NCBI RefSeq assembly: GCF_034274695.1
Contig: NZ_CP128362.1
Location: 2,701,001-2,765,000, forward strand
Length of the DNA: 64,000 bases
Direction: 5' to 3'
Origin: Chitinophaga sp. LS1
GTDB taxonomy: Bacteria; Bacteroidota; Bacteroidia; Chitinophagales; Chitinophagaceae
Numbering within the stretch: position 1 is the first letter of the stretch; each line of letters begins with the position of its first letter. Both the position numbers and the translations under genes were made by a program. Shown here piece after piece: positions 24,801-30,260 of the stretch. The notes beneath the pieces are model-generated. The model did no database searches and had not been told where the DNA came from. It saw only the letters and a program-made list of their open reading frames with translations.

Positions 24801-27776
24801 TTACTGAATCATCAGTTTAGTGCTCATCACTTTCTTTGTTTTAGTGCTTACTTCCACGCTGTAAATACCTGTAGGTATACCAGATGGAATAGTCATAGTC
24901 TCGTTAGCCTTCGCTGATTTTCTCAACACCACTCTGCCTGACATATCCGTCATTGTTACAATCACATCTGTAATTGCCTTATCTGATATACGAATAGCAA
25001 AGCTATGCTGTATAACAGGGTTTGGATAAATAGATGAAGTGGTTACCTCCACAGACGCCTGTCTTGCACCCGCTTCAGTACCCGCTGCTTCAAAGTGTGA
25101 CCAGTCATACGCACCTACATAATGCACATAGTAATTACCATTCACTCTCGCAGGCATGCTATTAGACCATGTATTGGTATAATCCACTCCATTGATCTCG
25201 AGTTTAGTCAGGTTCCATGAATTGATGTAAGAGATATTACCTGCAATTACATAACAGAACTCACCATTACCATCTTTTGCAAATGGTAATGTCACCACAG
25301 AAGGGTTATCACAGCTACCACCAGTTACGTTCTGTTTGAAATTAGCAGTGACAGACAGGTTGGTGTTTACTGTAACGGTAACAGGATTGAGGGTGTCAGT
25401 AATGCCACCGCTCCAATTATTAAACAGGTAACCATTACCTGGTGTTGCAGTCAATGTTACAACCGTACCTTCTGTATATGTACCACCAGCGGGGTTGAGT
25501 ACCACCGTACCGGTACCTGATACTGCTGTAGTGATAGAATACTGCTTAGGTGCGACTACATTGGTCACATAGATATTGCTGGTATCTTTAAAGCTACCAT
25601 CAGCAGTCGTCGCATAAATGAATGCACTCCCTGAAGCCAGCGTTGTTACTAATCCTGTGCTGCTCACAGTAGCAATGGATGGTGCAGAAGATGTCCATGT
25701 CAGCAACTTATTGGTAGCATTAGCAGGTAATACAGTTGCTGTGAGTTGTGCTGTAGTATTGATGTTCAGTGTATCGGTAGCAGGTGTAACAGTGATACCT
25801 GTTACAGGTACTACTACAGCAGGTGTAGGTGTGCTGCCATATACCAGTTGATCATTTACATAGAGAGGAATATTACTTACTTCTTTCAATGTACCGTCTA
25901 CACCCTGTGAAGACCAGTCATTGGCTGCGTTCCATGCACTGGCTGGCGCTTCGTAAGGAAGACGGATACGGATCTGTGATTCTTTCTTTGACTCACTCTG
26001 ACCACCTGGCCAGATCTTAAGCGTTGAATTGTAAGTTACCTCTGTATAATAAAGATGCTTTGCAGTATCCCACGCTTGTAACGGTGTAAAAGTTACATCT
26101 GCATTGTTGGAAGAAACGACGTAGTCAGTAGATTTATAACCGGCGGTAAGGCCTTCTGAAATATCAACAAATAAACGGAATACATGTTTGGATGCAATAC
26201 GTGCCGGCCATGCAGTATGATTGTTTACCCACACAGACCATTCAGTGTATGTAGTACCACTGCCATTGATCTTGGCCTCGATCGTGAATTCGCCTGTAGG
26301 TGTTTCTGCCACCGGGAAGTTAGTGAGGGGTGTACCTCCGTAATCCTGTACCAGCTTTGCCGCCAGTCCGGAGAATGCCGCATTGTAATCGGTCGCTACT
26401 TCGTTATTCACATAGTTGCCACGATCATCTGTATAGGAGTCATCGTTGTTGGGGCCACCTACCAGTGCGCCATACAAGGTATGTCTCGATTCGGTAGGAG
26501 GGCCGGTCAGGTTATTCGTCCAGCAACCATGTGCAGTACGATGGTGAGGCTTTACAGGAGGATTTGTACCAAAGCCACATACATAACTACGATTGTTTGG
26601 ATTGCTACCCAGTGCATAGTTTATTTGAGATTGTGCAAAGGTGTAGTACTTCGTGCCTTTGGCAGTGGTAGTAGCGGCATCTTTGTAGTAAGCAGCCAGG
26701 AAACCAGTGTTGATCGCATATCTCAGTGCACCCCATACATCCAGGAATGCGAGGCCACCGGCTGTGTAAGTAATGCGTGACCCATTGTAACCATCTGTCC
26801 AATAGTCAAGGTGTCTTTCTATATCTTCTTTGTACTGGGTTTTGCCTGTCAGCTTTGCCAGTAGCGCATAACAGCCAGTAGATTTATCATCCCAGGCTAG
26901 CCCCCATTTGTAAGATTTGATGGCTGTCTGTGATTCAGTAGAGAGGTTTGCATAGTATGTCTCTGCTTTTGTGAGCCATGCAGCATCGCCGGTGGCGCGG
27001 TAGAGCCAGATGGCGCCCCATACCAGTTCATCGTTGTAGCCGCTGTAAGAGTTATAATAACTGGCAGCATCCGTGATGGAAGCAGAATACATACCGCGAT
27101 AGGTATCAGCAAAGTTGTACAACTGAATCGCGTGTGTAAGCAACGTCGCACTATAAGTAGGGTCGTCTGTTTTAAACACCATACTGGCAGCGGCCATTGC
27201 AGCAGCAGTTTCGGCAGCAAGGTCAGAGCCTGGATGTGTCGCATCAATCTTGTAAGCAGGACGGGACATCGCCATTACTTCCGAAGATCCCCACCACGCG
27301 TGGTCTGTACCGCCATTGCCTACCTGGCCATACAGTTCATTTGGCGCGGTATGACAGCGAATAAAATAGTCATTTACAAAACGAAGATTGCTTTTCAGGT
27401 ACTTCATCTGACCGGAGTTATTATAACCACCTGCAAAGTCAACAGCGCCCCAGGCCAGCATCGTCGCTGAGAAAGCCATCGGGAAGTTGAACTTCACATG
27501 GTCGCCGGCATCATACCATCCACCAGTCAGGTCTACACCTACATCACTACCATCAGTGAGTGCTGAGTTGCTACGCCAGGTGACACGGTTGTCTGCCGGC
27601 AATGTACCCGAGCGTTGTGCTTCGTAAAAGAACATAGACTTCTGCAATACTTCTGCATAGTTGTAGCTCTGTGCGTACGTGGATTTGAGGGATACCATCG
27701 TCAGGATGGTGGCGAATATGGGTAGGCGCAGCAGCTTGCCTCCCTTCGCAGGAACGAGGGAAAATCTGGTTTTCAT
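24801..27776 (-). CDS. Multidomain GH9 cellulase with T9SS sorting domain
   Basis: The protein has 991 residues from the ATG at 27776; a TTG seven codons upstream is less likely. A signal peptide (1 to about 36, STYAQ) precedes a GH9 catalytic domain (about 38-480) with GGWYDAGDHVKF holding the base-site aspartates D89/D92, the GH9 signature around VCGFGTNPPVKPHHRTAHG, and NNEVATDYNAAFSGLAAKL with the acid glutamate. A CBM3-like module follows (about 485-640), then a BIG2 domain (about 650-745), an InlB-type repeat (SITTAVSGTGTV..., about 750-815), an unidentified module, and a type A T9SS C-terminal domain (YPNPV... about 910-991). It is a secreted or surface-attached endoglucanase. GH9 with CBM3c usually indicates processive cellulose cleavage. 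No SusCD genes are nearby. Confidence 0.92.
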   Translation of the reverse strand: MKTRFSLVPAKGGKLLRLPIFATILTMVSLKSTYAQSYNYAEVLQKSMFFYEAQRSGTLPADNRVTWRSNSALTDGSDVGVDLTGGWYDAGDHVKFNFPMAFSATMLAWGAVDFAGGYNNSGQMKYLKSNLRFVNDYFIRCHTAPNELYGQVGNGGTDHAWWGSSEVMAMSRPAYKIDATHPGSDLAAETAAAMAAASMVFKTDDPTYSATLLTHAIQLYNFADTYRGMYSASITDAASYYNSYSGYNDELVWGAIWLYRATGDAAWLTKAETYYANLSTESQTAIKSYKWGLAWDDKSTGCYALLAKLTGKTQYKEDIERHLDYWTDGYNGSRITYTAGGLAFLDVWGALRYAINTGFLAAYYKDAATTTAKGTKYYTFAQSQINYALGSNPNNRSYVCGFGTNPPVKPHHRTAHGCWTNNLTGPPTESRHTLYGALVGGPNNDDSYTDDRGNYVNNEVATDYNAAFSGLAAKLVQDYGGTPLTNFPVAETPTGEFTIEAKINGSGTTYTEWSVWVNNHTAWPARIASKHVFRLFVDISEGLTAGYKSTDYVVSSNNADVTFTPLQAWDTAKHLYYTEVTYNSTLKIWPGGQSESKKESQIRIRLPYEAPASAWNAANDWSSQGVDGTLKEVSNIPLYVNDQLVYGSTPTPAVVVPVTGITVTPATDTLNINTTAQLTATVLPANATNKLLTWTSSAPSIATVSSTGLVTTLASGSAFIYATTADGSFKDTSNIYVTNVVAPKQYSITTAVSGTGTVVLNPAGGTYTEGTVVTLTATPGNGYLFNNWSGGITDTLNPVTVTVNTNLSVTANFKQNVTGGSCDNPSVVTLPFAKDGNGEFCYVIAGNISYINSWNLTKLEINGVDYTNTWSNSMPARVNGNYYVHYVGAYDWSHFEAAGTEAGARQASVEVTTSSIYPNPVIQHSFAIRISDKAITDVIVTMTDMSGRVVLRKSAKANETMTIPSGIPTGIYSVEVSTKTKKVMSTKLMIQ

Positions 27777-27912
27777 CGGGTTGTATTTAAAAATCAATGT
27801 AAAGGGACCAATGGGTATCTGAATTGGGCCTTGAAGAGATTATAGGTTTTTTATAGTATGTCTTTAAGAATAATGATATGGTAACGCAAGTTTAGGGAAT
27901 TCTCAGGTATAA

Positions 27913-28176: not shown

Positions 28177-28310
28177 CTTGCGTATTAAATAGGTTCAGAT
28201 AAATATTTTCTGATTAGTGGATGGGCTTTGGCAGGATAAAATGTAGTGTTTAAACAATATAGCAAGGTCAAACACGGATTTTTAACATCTTACTAAGTTT
28301 TTGCCTTTTA

Positions 28311-29129
28311 TTAGAGTAATGCTAGCATCTCGTCGATATTTCCTTTTATTTGAAGGGAGCGGGCTGCGATTTCCGCAGGCACTTCAGGGTGGTCTCTGTT
28401 AAAGCGAAGCAGGTAGGCCGAAGGATTATGGTAAGTGATTTGTTCCATTGGCCAGCGTACTACTCCTGGAGTATTGAAACCGGTGCCCATGTCCATGATG
28501 ACTATGGGTGTTTGTAAATGTTGATGTACCCATGACTGGAAGCGTTCGCGTTGTTGCTCGTAAGGTTTTTCGATAAACCAGCTGCCACCCCGGACGTTCA
28601 TAAACATATCGCCACCACATTTAGGACATTTAGGAATAGCGTTTGCATCCGTGATTTCATGCGTAACCGGATCAAGATTCGCTGACAGTTTATCAAGAAT
28701 AGGGCGGGTATCATATGTTTCATCAGAGCAGGGTTGTAAACATTGCATCAGTTTATAGTTTCCCTGTGGTGTGAAAATTCTGGAAGGGGCAAAACCGTTC
28801 TTTTCAAACATGGTATCCACATTGGAGGTAATGACAAAGTATTCCTTGTCTCTGACCAGAGAGAATAATTGTTGATAAACGGTGGCCTGCTGATTATCGT
28901 ACGCAACGTTTTGCACATGCATGGCATGATAGCCCCAGTTAATGGCTTCGGATAAGCCCTGGTAGCCCATTAACTGGTAGTTGTTACGAAAGCCTCTCTG
29001 GTACATGACAGGGAAGAGCTTACGAAATCTTTCGGAAGATGTATAGTCAATACCTGCGGCAGCACTCATACCTGCGCCTGCACCAATCAATATTACTTTT
29101 GCATCACGAATCAATTGCCCGAATTCCAT
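28311..29129 (-). CDS. SIR2-family protein of the class-M (SirTM) type
   Basis: The protein has 272 residues. Sirtuin NAD-binding motifs are present: GAGAGMSAAAGIDY (about 16-29) and TSNVDTMFEKNGF (101-113). Where deacetylase sirtuins have the catalytic His in a HG motif, this protein has TPQGNY with Q122. Zinc-ribbon cysteines are C130/C134 and C168/C171 (CPKCGG). The N-x-D plus Gln arrangement is that described for SirTM enzymes, which ADP-ribosylate a lipoylated carrier protein in Staphylococcus and Streptococcus. Transfer of that activity to this protein is inference. The gene overlaps the upstream macrodomain gene by 19 bp, matching the SirTM-macrodomain operon. The GcvH-L and LplA2 genes of the described operons are not adjacent here. 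Confidence 0.8.
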   Translation of the reverse strand: MEFGQLIRDAKVILIGAGAGMSAAAGIDYTSSERFRKLFPVMYQRGFRNNYQLMGYQGLSEAINWGYHAMHVQNVAYDNQQATVYQQLFSLVRDKEYFVITSNVDTMFEKNGFAPSRIFTPQGNYKLMQCLQPCSDETYDTRPILDKLSANLDPVTHEITDANAIPKCPKCGGDMFMNVRGGSWFIEKPYEQQRERFQSWVHQHLQTPIVIMDMGTGFNTPGVVRWPMEQITYHNPSAYLLRFNRDHPEVPAEIAARSLQIKGNIDEMLALL

Positions 29130-29719
29130 ACTGCTAATTCTTTTTGATAGATCTGATAATCTGCGTCGCTGAATACGTTGAAGATGACTTTTTGCACAGG
29201 GCTCTCCGGATGTGCGGCAACCCAGTTATACACCGTGCGGATGGCTACTTTTGCTGCCAGTGCTGGTGGGTAACCAAATACACCTGTGGAGATGCAGCAG
29301 AAGGCGATAGATTGAATATCTCCCTTAGCATGCGCCACTTCCAGACAGCTTTTATAGCAACTGGCAAGTTGTTCTTCCTGTAATGGGGTAGGTGTTAAAT
29401 GTGCTACTATCGGGCCTACAGTGTGAATGACATATTTAGCAGGCAGGAAAAAACCGGGAGTGATCTTTGCTTGTCCTGTTGGTTCTGTATGTCCTTGCCG
29501 GAGCATGAGTTGATGGCATGCTTCACGCAAACGGGGGCCTGCTGCTGAATGAATGGCATTGTCTATACACTTATGAAATGGGTGGAAACATCCAAGTAGT
29601 TGTGAATTGGCTGCATTTACGATTGCATCTACCTGTAGGGTGGTAATATCCTTACAGCTATAAGGTAGCAAATTAACGGATAGATGGCAGCTGCGGACAA
29701 TAGCATTACATACTTCCAC
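29111..29719 (-). CDS. Zinc-type macrodomain (ADP-ribosyl hydrolase-like)
   Basis: The protein has 202 residues. It is an ADP-ribose-binding macrodomain: VDAIVNAANSQLLGC, TGQAKITPGFFLPAKYVIHTVGPI and the phosphate loop CISTGVFGYPPALAA. The segment GCFHPFHKC gives C44, H49 and C51, the Cys-His-Cys pattern of the zinc-containing macrodomains paired with SirTM sirtuins. These remove ADP-ribose from the modified carrier. The usual helical N-terminal extension of about 60 residues is absent. No ATG is available near the domain start; GTG at 29719 is the best start, and it lies 91 bp inside the upstream membrane-protein gene. The frame upstream of the GTG stays open for only about 23 codons without an ATG. 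The 5' end may therefore have been lost. Confidence 0.8.
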   Translation of the reverse strand: MEVCNAIVRSCHLSVNLLPYSCKDITTLQVDAIVNAANSQLLGCFHPFHKCIDNAIHSAAGPRLREACHQLMLRQGHTEPTGQAKITPGFFLPAKYVIHTVGPIVAHLTPTPLQEEQLASCYKSCLEVAHAKGDIQSIAFCCISTGVFGYPPALAAKVAIRTVYNWVAAHPESPVQKVIFNVFSDADYQIYQKELAVWNSGN

Positions 29720-30138
29720 AATGGGGCGCTGTAATTGGACCGGCCAGAGGCCCCATTGAAACCAGTAATGATCATATAGGCTATTTCATGAGAGATCAGA
29801 CAGCTATAAACAATGACTAAAATCAACGAAAATAAGACCGTAGCTCTTAGTTTCTTTAAAAGAGAGAGCGAAATTGCAGCCACATAAATGATGATAAACG
29901 GCAAGTAGACTGCTGAACGGTATTTGAAGAATATGTGATCCGGGGAGGCCTCCCATGCATTGACCAGGTCAACGGTCATCAGCATCACATTCACCAAAGC
30001 AAGAACAGCAGCAATAGAATTGGCAGTAGAGAGATATGTGCTTTTAACCTTTCGGAGTTTTGCCATACACAGCGTGGCTATCAGAAAGCCAATTATGGAT
30101 ATACAGTGGGCCTGGAGCAGGGATTCTGGTATAAACAT
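29629..30138 (-). CDS. Small polytopic membrane protein of unknown function
   Basis: The protein has 169 residues from the ATG at 30138; a longer frame would run back into the tRNA gene. About five hydrophobic segments are visible (SIIGFLIATLCMA, IAAVLALVNVMLMTVDLV, VYLPFIIIYVAAISLSL, VLFSLILVIVYSCLI, VMLLSAAAIYPLICYLIAV). I recognise no family. Its 3' end overlaps the macrodomain gene by 91 bp, which is a large overlap and suggests either translational coupling or a fusion point left by rearrangement. Confidence 0.6.
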   Translation of the reverse strand: MFIPESLLQAHCISIIGFLIATLCMAKLRKVKSTYLSTANSIAAVLALVNVMLMTVDLVNAWEASPDHIFFKYRSAVYLPFIIIYVAAISLSLLKKLRATVLFSLILVIVYSCLISHEIAYMIITGFNGASGRSNYSAPLWKYVMLLSAAAIYPLICYLIAVRILPPYR

Positions 30139-30188
30139 ATGCGGCACAAAATAAAAAAGGCTGCCCAATTGAGCAACCTTCTTACTGG

Positions 30189-30260
30189 TACCGCGTACGG
30201 GAGTCGAACCCGTCATTCCTCCGTGAAAGGGAGGCGTCTTAGCCGATTGACCAACGCGGC
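30189..30260 (-). tRNA. tRNA-Glu (anticodon TTC), second copy
   Basis: It is identical over all 72 nt to the tRNA gene at 15956-16027, on the same strand. The anticodon corresponds to 30225-30227. CCA is not encoded. Confidence 0.95.

Follow-up and report, generated by a model that had tools for sequence, protein, structure and literature searches.

Does a sirtuin gene that overlaps a macrodomain gene in Chitinophaga sp. LS1 belong to a working system of reversible protein ADP-ribosylation, and which protein would such a pair modify when the known carrier partners are not beside it? The original prediction, made from a 64,000-nucleotide stretch of this genome (contig NZ_CP128362.1, positions 2,701,001 to 2,765,000; here called the window), described a SirTM-like sirtuin paired with a zinc-type macrodomain (ZnMac or Zn-Macro) and suggested that the target may be "elsewhere or different". 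Both frames were recovered on the minus strand of the window, at 28311-29129 (272 aa) and 29111-29719 (202 aa), with the 19-bp overlap that had been reported. The evidence assembled below favours, with a probability of roughly 0.7, the reading that an AraC-SnoaL-ZnMac-SirTM cassette is present in the window as a damaged allele, in which the writer has been left without its regulator, its proposed target and a working eraser.

The sirtuin frame is intact, and its translation contains GAGAGMSAAAG, TSNVD and Q122-G123. Q122 and G123, found where deacylases have His-Gly, are unvaried in an alignment of 32 rows, comprising the window protein and 31 of its 120 listed homologues (the best 120 of 545 found). 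Pfam SIR2 matches the protein at 25.7 bits against a cut-off of 24, and a search of PDB sequences to E = 10 returned the SirTM structures 8rsn (1e-43) and 5a3a (1e-32), one chance match at E = 0.21, and no canonical sirtuin structure. In a quick tree, from which the too short L072 was dropped, the window sirtuin joins the SirTM of C. silvisoli with support 98 and lies far from the canonical sirtuin of its own genome; as the outgroup is a single canonical sirtuin on a very long branch, the phylogeny that had been proposed stands for this grouping and not as a tree against classes I-IV. On these sequence grounds the protein is confirmed as a SirTM and predicted to be an ADP-ribosyl writer, genetically linked through the overlapping frames to a zinc macrodomain that is itself truncated. 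Relative to C. silvisoli, dN/dS is 0.054 for SirTM and 0.057 for the macrodomain core, values that speak for long-term selection only, since dS is near saturation in both. No TAA codon lies inside the 272-aa frame; two occur in a profile match whose span exceeds the frame at both ends. Separately, a SirTM 68% identical to that of the window (P0004) is found in a eukaryote transcriptome collection (eukprot), reflecting either transfer or bacterial contamination.

The window genome (G000) is a single contig of 8.67 Mb that contains one further sirtuin, which is canonical, and two further macrodomain matches, one of them barely above the cut-off. It also has one GcvH match and one LplA/LipB catalytic-domain match, both away from the SirTM pair, and the latter gene is, from its sequence, presumably LipB. 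Given the one GcvH and the sole LplA/LipB gene that reads as LipB, neither a second GcvH (GcvH-L) nor LplA2 was found genome-wide at this sensitivity, which extends to the whole genome the absence first noted beside the pair. This absence is no surprise, because independent SirTM/macrodomain operons were already described in 2015 and 2024: operons of bacterial SirTMs come in an independent and an extended form (Rack et al., 2015; PMC4518038), and the minimal pairs of M. oralis, E. faecalis and T. pedis are treated by Ariza et al. (2024; PMC11490716). According to the latter authors, GcvH-L is the sole known SirTM substrate, and other SirTM/Zn-Macro targets have been elusive (PMC11490716). The single canonical GcvH of the window genome was considered as a target and is possible, if unsupported. 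The view that such pairs occur mainly in Firmicutes and fungi proved too narrow, as the 80 SirTM loci surveyed here include Bacteroidota, Pseudomonadota, Actinomycetota, Myxococcota, Spirochaetota, Verrucomicrobiota and Acidobacteriota.

The macrodomain frame, read from GTG 29719, is composite. Its first 23 codons (29651..29719, minus strand) are a foreign leader in which a membrane-protein gene is read out of frame, and nothing in the C. silvisoli gene corresponds to them. The Zn-Macro core follows, from DITTLQ to the stop codon (29111..29650, minus strand), with NAAN, C44-x4-H49-x-C51 and D53-x3-H57. Among PDB sequences it is closest to the Zn-Macros 8rsi, 8rsm, 5kiv, 8rsl and 8rsn (6e-55 to 2e-46), and the zinc pattern of C44, H49 and C51 that had been read from the translation is present. 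The missing part is the N-terminal 3-alpha bundle, which all Zn-Macros have (Ariza et al., 2024; PMC11490716) and which is deleted in the window relative to G452, P0125 and C. silvisoli (see below); the window protein is therefore called a truncated Zn-Macro derivative. Strand 1 is absent as well, and the core begins at DITT after it. Ahead of NAAN the frame offers only GTG 29719 and TTG 29671 as starts, and no ATG; GTG 29719, the longest possible start, lies 34 codons before NAAN, while the C. silvisoli gene (L009) has an ATG 80 codons before it. DNA similarity between the two begins abruptly at the Asp codon of DITTLQ.

When modelled with AlphaFold2 (mean pLDDT 90), the C. silvisoli Zn-Macro shows helices 5-13, 25-35 and 42-54 ahead of the macrodomain, and the model aligns with 8rsi over 250 columns (TM 0.87 by query length). 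Of the 80 SirTM loci, 58 have a Zn-loop macrodomain by pattern search, one of which (L063) is cut by a contig end, and at least 80 codons separate a possible start from NAAN in 57/57 measurable loci. Likewise, among the best 120 of 7,978 homologues of the C. silvisoli protein, the zinc motif is present in 120/120 and fewer than 64 residues precede NAAN in none. A naturally bundle-less clade was rejected, because these 57 loci and 120 listed homologues hold no second case and an intact protein (P0125) exists in the same lineage. A frameshift hiding the bundle in another upstream frame was also rejected, tblastn of the C. silvisoli protein returning only the core. As an observation apart, the Zn-Macro relatives in L041, L055, L058 and L083 have Cx4HxC but carry Gly or Asn for the His of Dx3H.

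Comparison with close relatives indicates how the bundle was lost. G452, a draft genome of 380 contigs labelled as the same species, agrees with the window to 99.5% on one flank and 99.7% on the other, and carries 1,906 bp extra at a junction (29647..29650, minus strand) where the tetranucleotide GATA is common to both ends. On this comparison, the cut in the macrodomain gene is a 1,906-bp deletion relative to G452. The missing stretch codes for an AraC-type regulator (HTH_18, AraC_binding), a two-domain SnoaL/NTF2-fold protein (SnoaL_2, SnoaL) and the Zn-Macro bundle; thus the AraC and SnoaL genes found directly upstream of ZnMac-SirTM in relatives are deleted in the window. Deletion between the two GATA copies fused the end of the membrane-protein gene to the macrodomain core, and the membrane-protein frame (29629..30216, minus strand, listed from an ATG in the tRNA region) indeed runs into Zn-Macro DNA with its last codons, ending in RILPPYR and not RIHAQENH. 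The synteny anchors are tRNA-Glu (ttc) at 30186..30260 and the downstream 998-aa gene at 24801..27797, both on the minus strand; the latter appears to encode a secreted glycoside hydrolase.

At the same genomic place, C. silvisoli has an intact AraC-SnoaL-ZnMac-SirTM cassette and G452 has AraC-SnoaL-ZnMac. G452 has suffered a deletion of its own, different from that of the window: 652 bp by arithmetic, between imperfect short repeats, removing the 3' part of Zn-Macro and the first 84 SirTM residues. The database protein P0125, named as from a Bacteroidetes MAG, keeps the bundle; it is identical to the window protein at 179/179 core residues and to G452 over the portion of the bundle that both contain, so this lineage does include an intact allele. 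Further decay is evident on the other side of SirTM, where a 541 to 554-aa gene precedes the 998-aa gene in C. silvisoli and G467 (L105 8659-10323). The window keeps 42 bp of it (28198..28239, unstranded), 86% identical to the end of the 541-aa gene that C. silvisoli has between SirTM and the 998-aa gene, and this reduction to a trace implies that the locus was deleted more than once.

The existence of P0125 could also be taken to mean that the truncation is an assembly error and that the strain has an intact cassette. This is very improbable: the genome is in one contig and 99.99% complete, nothing in it matches the missing SnoaL protein, the two ends meet cleanly at a microhomology, and the same-species draft has a different deletion at the same locus. 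Of greater weight is the question of whether the truncated protein still works. In S. aureus Macro, removal of residues 1-70 abolished zinc coordination, and zinc and activity went together in that study (Ariza et al., 2024; PMC11490716). This part is also absent from the natural allele of the window, which differs from this laboratory construct of a GcvH-L-type enzyme in its 23-residue foreign leader and its start at DITT. As the window protein has no bundle, its eraser activity is most likely lost; it probably binds zinc poorly and is predicted to be inactive despite the retained catalytic and zinc residues, the need of the bundle for zinc being known from one GcvH-L-type enzyme. By our own reading of the DNA, translation would moreover have to start at a GTG or TTG inside the membrane-protein gene, with no obvious ribosome site.

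The pair might nevertheless persist as a minimal reversible system, with a bundle-less Zn-Macro made from GTG 29719 or TTG 29671 and a target elsewhere in the genome. The complete core, with 179 residues identical to the intact P0125, would suit this view, as would the match in fold to MacroD-type macrodomains such as E. coli YmdB, which are active without a bundle. Published pairs without a linked target are consistent with it too (PMC11490716). Such a system is nonetheless unlikely given the zinc loss of the S. aureus bundle deletion (PMC11490716), the additional absence of strand 1, the lack of both an ATG and an obvious ribosome site, and the fact that no other bundle-less case was seen among the loci examined and homologues listed. 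The original prediction of a working SirTM/ZnMac pair thus stands for the family of the sirtuin and of the macrodomain core, but the macrodomain gene is 5'-truncated and the reversible pair is probably broken.

What the deletion removed can be judged from the distribution of SnoaL among SirTM loci, for which the best 80 of 574 confirmed loci, each at most 14.8 kb, were surveyed. Gene maps built from longest ORFs cannot be relied on at high GC, and tblastn was therefore used to count SnoaL and AraC anew. At E <= 1e-20, 16/80 loci have a SnoaL relative; two weaker matches (L015, and L017 at 1e-10) are left out of this number, and a cluster-based count also gave 16 with other membership, taking in L017 and missing L022. 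The linkage is concentrated near the window: 15 of the 25 closest loci have it, against 1 of the remaining 55. In 13/80 loci from four phyla, SnoaL is encoded on the strand of the Zn-Macro core, with its stop codon no more than 1 kb upstream of that core (Chitinophaga, Corallococcus, Grimontia, Enterovibrio, Shewanella, Vibrio, five Streptomyces and two Kutzneria); L022 is exceptional among them in having SirTM upstream of SnoaL and not behind Zn-Macro. The exact one-strand order AraC-SnoaL-ZnMac-SirTM is found in five of the 80 (L009, L018, L019, L023 and L027).

SnoaL is scarce in the genomes concerned, with 1 to 3 matches in 19 of 25 genome handles and none in 6, including the window genome; these handles were mostly picked for holding SirTM loci and probably stand for 24 genomes, G030 and G495 sharing coordinates. 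At this copy number in genomes of several megabases, less than one SnoaL would be expected by chance in the 80 loci, as a rough estimate. Mapped on the SirTM tree, the SnoaL label requires 8 changes, whereas 500 shuffles gave a mean of 15.0, showing that the linkage is clustered yet recurs in separate lineages. Since SnoaL is linked in 16/80 loci, it is not the target of all SirTMs. Clustering revealed other recurrent neighbours, namely an HxlR regulator (22/80), a pyridoxamine-oxidase/4Fe-4S protein (11), an NmrA-like NAD(P)-binding protein (9), DUF1848 (9), radical SAM/SPASM (8) and nitroreductase (7). These belong to Bacillota loci among L034-L088 and a few others, were named by Pfam from one representative each, and supply further candidate partner sets.

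In the Vibrionaceae, the family of Grimontia celer, the relation between the two halves of the cassette becomes visible. SirTM occurs in 5/150 genomes sampled, SnoaL at E <= 1e-30 in 36, and a close SnoaL orthologue (at least 60% identity) in 34. All five SirTM genomes are among these 34, with the order AraC-SnoaL-ZnMac-SirTM in 5/5 (L018, L019, L131, L132 and L133), and the other 29 have the orthologue without SirTM. AraC lies directly upstream of SnoaL in 11/11 of the SirTM-less orthologues checked (of 29) and in 0/3 distant SnoaL paralogues. The presence of AraC upstream of orthologues that have no SirTM makes AraC-SnoaL look like the older unit, with ZnMac-SirTM as an optional module behind it. 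The module is also sporadic elsewhere, being found in 3/79 genomes of the genus Chitinophaga, one of them the broken G452, and at E <= 1e-30 in 1/395 genomes of a phylum-wide sample, the window's own. In two Vibrionaceae loci, L027 (5097-5995) and L133 (G592), SnoaL is split near the domain boundary into two overlapping or adjacent frames; the ZnMac and SirTM frames of both loci are intact.

Decay of the module appears to follow a pattern. Besides the window and G452, remnants were met in G561 (L117; Zn-Macro residues 1-135 only), G551 (L120; only a SirTM piece, 1e-7) and G467 (about 100 bp at the 3' end of SirTM). None of the five decayed genomes, which do not come from a systematic search, combines an intact SirTM next to SnoaL with a broken Zn-Macro, which suggests a rule that loci with SnoaL give up the eraser only when the writer goes too. 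SirTM without Zn-Macro in the available DNA is found in 11/80 loci, outside the SnoaL type; two are at a contig start, and one of the 11, L015, has a weak SnoaL match and a SirTM match that lacks the first 44 residues. L043, L045, L054, L057, L069, L073, L087 and L088 are of this kind and not at a contig start, and the SirTM genes of L057, L073 and L088 adjoin radical-SAM and nitroreductase or quinone-reductase-like genes. Such loci may represent writers whose eraser is distant or of another kind.

Because the pair looks like an optional addition to an older AraC-SnoaL unit, SnoaL or AraC becomes a candidate target that can be tested. In relatives with the whole cassette, SirTM would mono-ADP-ribosylate an operon-encoded partner, most likely the SnoaL/NTF2-fold protein, Zn-Macro would take the tag off and the AraC protein would control the locus; this reversible switch, deduced from conserved linkage, is offered tentatively. 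In the window, comparison shows that one deletion took out regulator, SnoaL-type protein and 3-alpha bundle, while the SirTM frame is untouched and, judging by its family, still predicted to transfer ADP-ribose from NAD+. The hypothesis that SnoaL is a SirTM substrate, drawn from gene linkage, would turn the target suspected to be "elsewhere or different" into a concrete candidate, now gone from the window genome.

Alternatively, SnoaL and AraC may be co-regulated neighbours rather than substrates, with ZnMac-SirTM modifying another protein such as canonical GcvH or a 2-oxoacid dehydrogenase E2 and landing behind AraC-SnoaL because the locus answers a shared stress. We rate this slightly below an even chance. 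AraC-SnoaL stands alone in 29 of the 34 Vibrionaceae genomes that have the orthologue, and SirTM-linked SnoaLs have no residues special to them relative to 12 SirTM-less rows (one of these looks misaligned, hence counts of 11/12). In addition, ADP-ribosylation in the known system depends on lipoylation (PMC4518038), and the window genome has one canonical GcvH. Against co-regulation speak the shared gene order in Bacteroidota and Gammaproteobacteria, with SnoaL adjoining Zn-Macro, and the finding that minimal-operon and fusion Zn-Macros left GcvH-L modified (PMC11490716).

The locus, in the window and in its relatives, can be set beside three known arrangements. It shares an adjacent macrodomain and class M sirtuin without GcvH-L or LplA2 with the minimal operons of M. 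oralis, E. faecalis and T. pedis, whose Zn-Macros have the 3-alpha bundle, whereas that of the window is truncated (PMC11490716). With the extended operons of S. aureus and S. pyogenes (GcvH-L, LplA2, OYE and LLM; PMC4518038) it shares a writer and eraser beside a conserved partner, which here is a SnoaL/NTF2-fold protein with an AraC regulator in place of GcvH-L/LplA2. The fungal macrodomain-SirTM fusion Mfs1 (8rsn), the best PDB match of the window sirtuin, is one fused polypeptide, while the window has two overlapping genes. The AraC-SnoaL-ZnMac-SirTM cassette appears to be a new element: AraC and SnoaL upstream of the pair are unmentioned, for minimal operons or otherwise, in the available portions of PMC11490716 and PMC4518038, and searches of the available literature returned no paper tying SnoaL to SirTM, to sirtuin plus macrodomain or to ADP-ribosyl, and none on Chitinophaga plus macrodomain; for operons of macrodomain and sirtuin with AraC, a single review on jumbo phages came up.

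More broadly, though with the odds against it, the SnoaL/NTF2-fold proteins of the AraC-SnoaL locus may form a second class of SirTM substrate, served by an optional module that is gained and lost across at least four phyla and whose writer is kept beside its target only with a working eraser. The strain of the window would then be a natural case of a writer left alone by the joint deletion of its target and its eraser. The window allele is also a natural counterpart of the laboratory bundle deletion. For the SirTM family, the SnoaL partner found in distant phyla provides a specific and cheaply testable target candidate.
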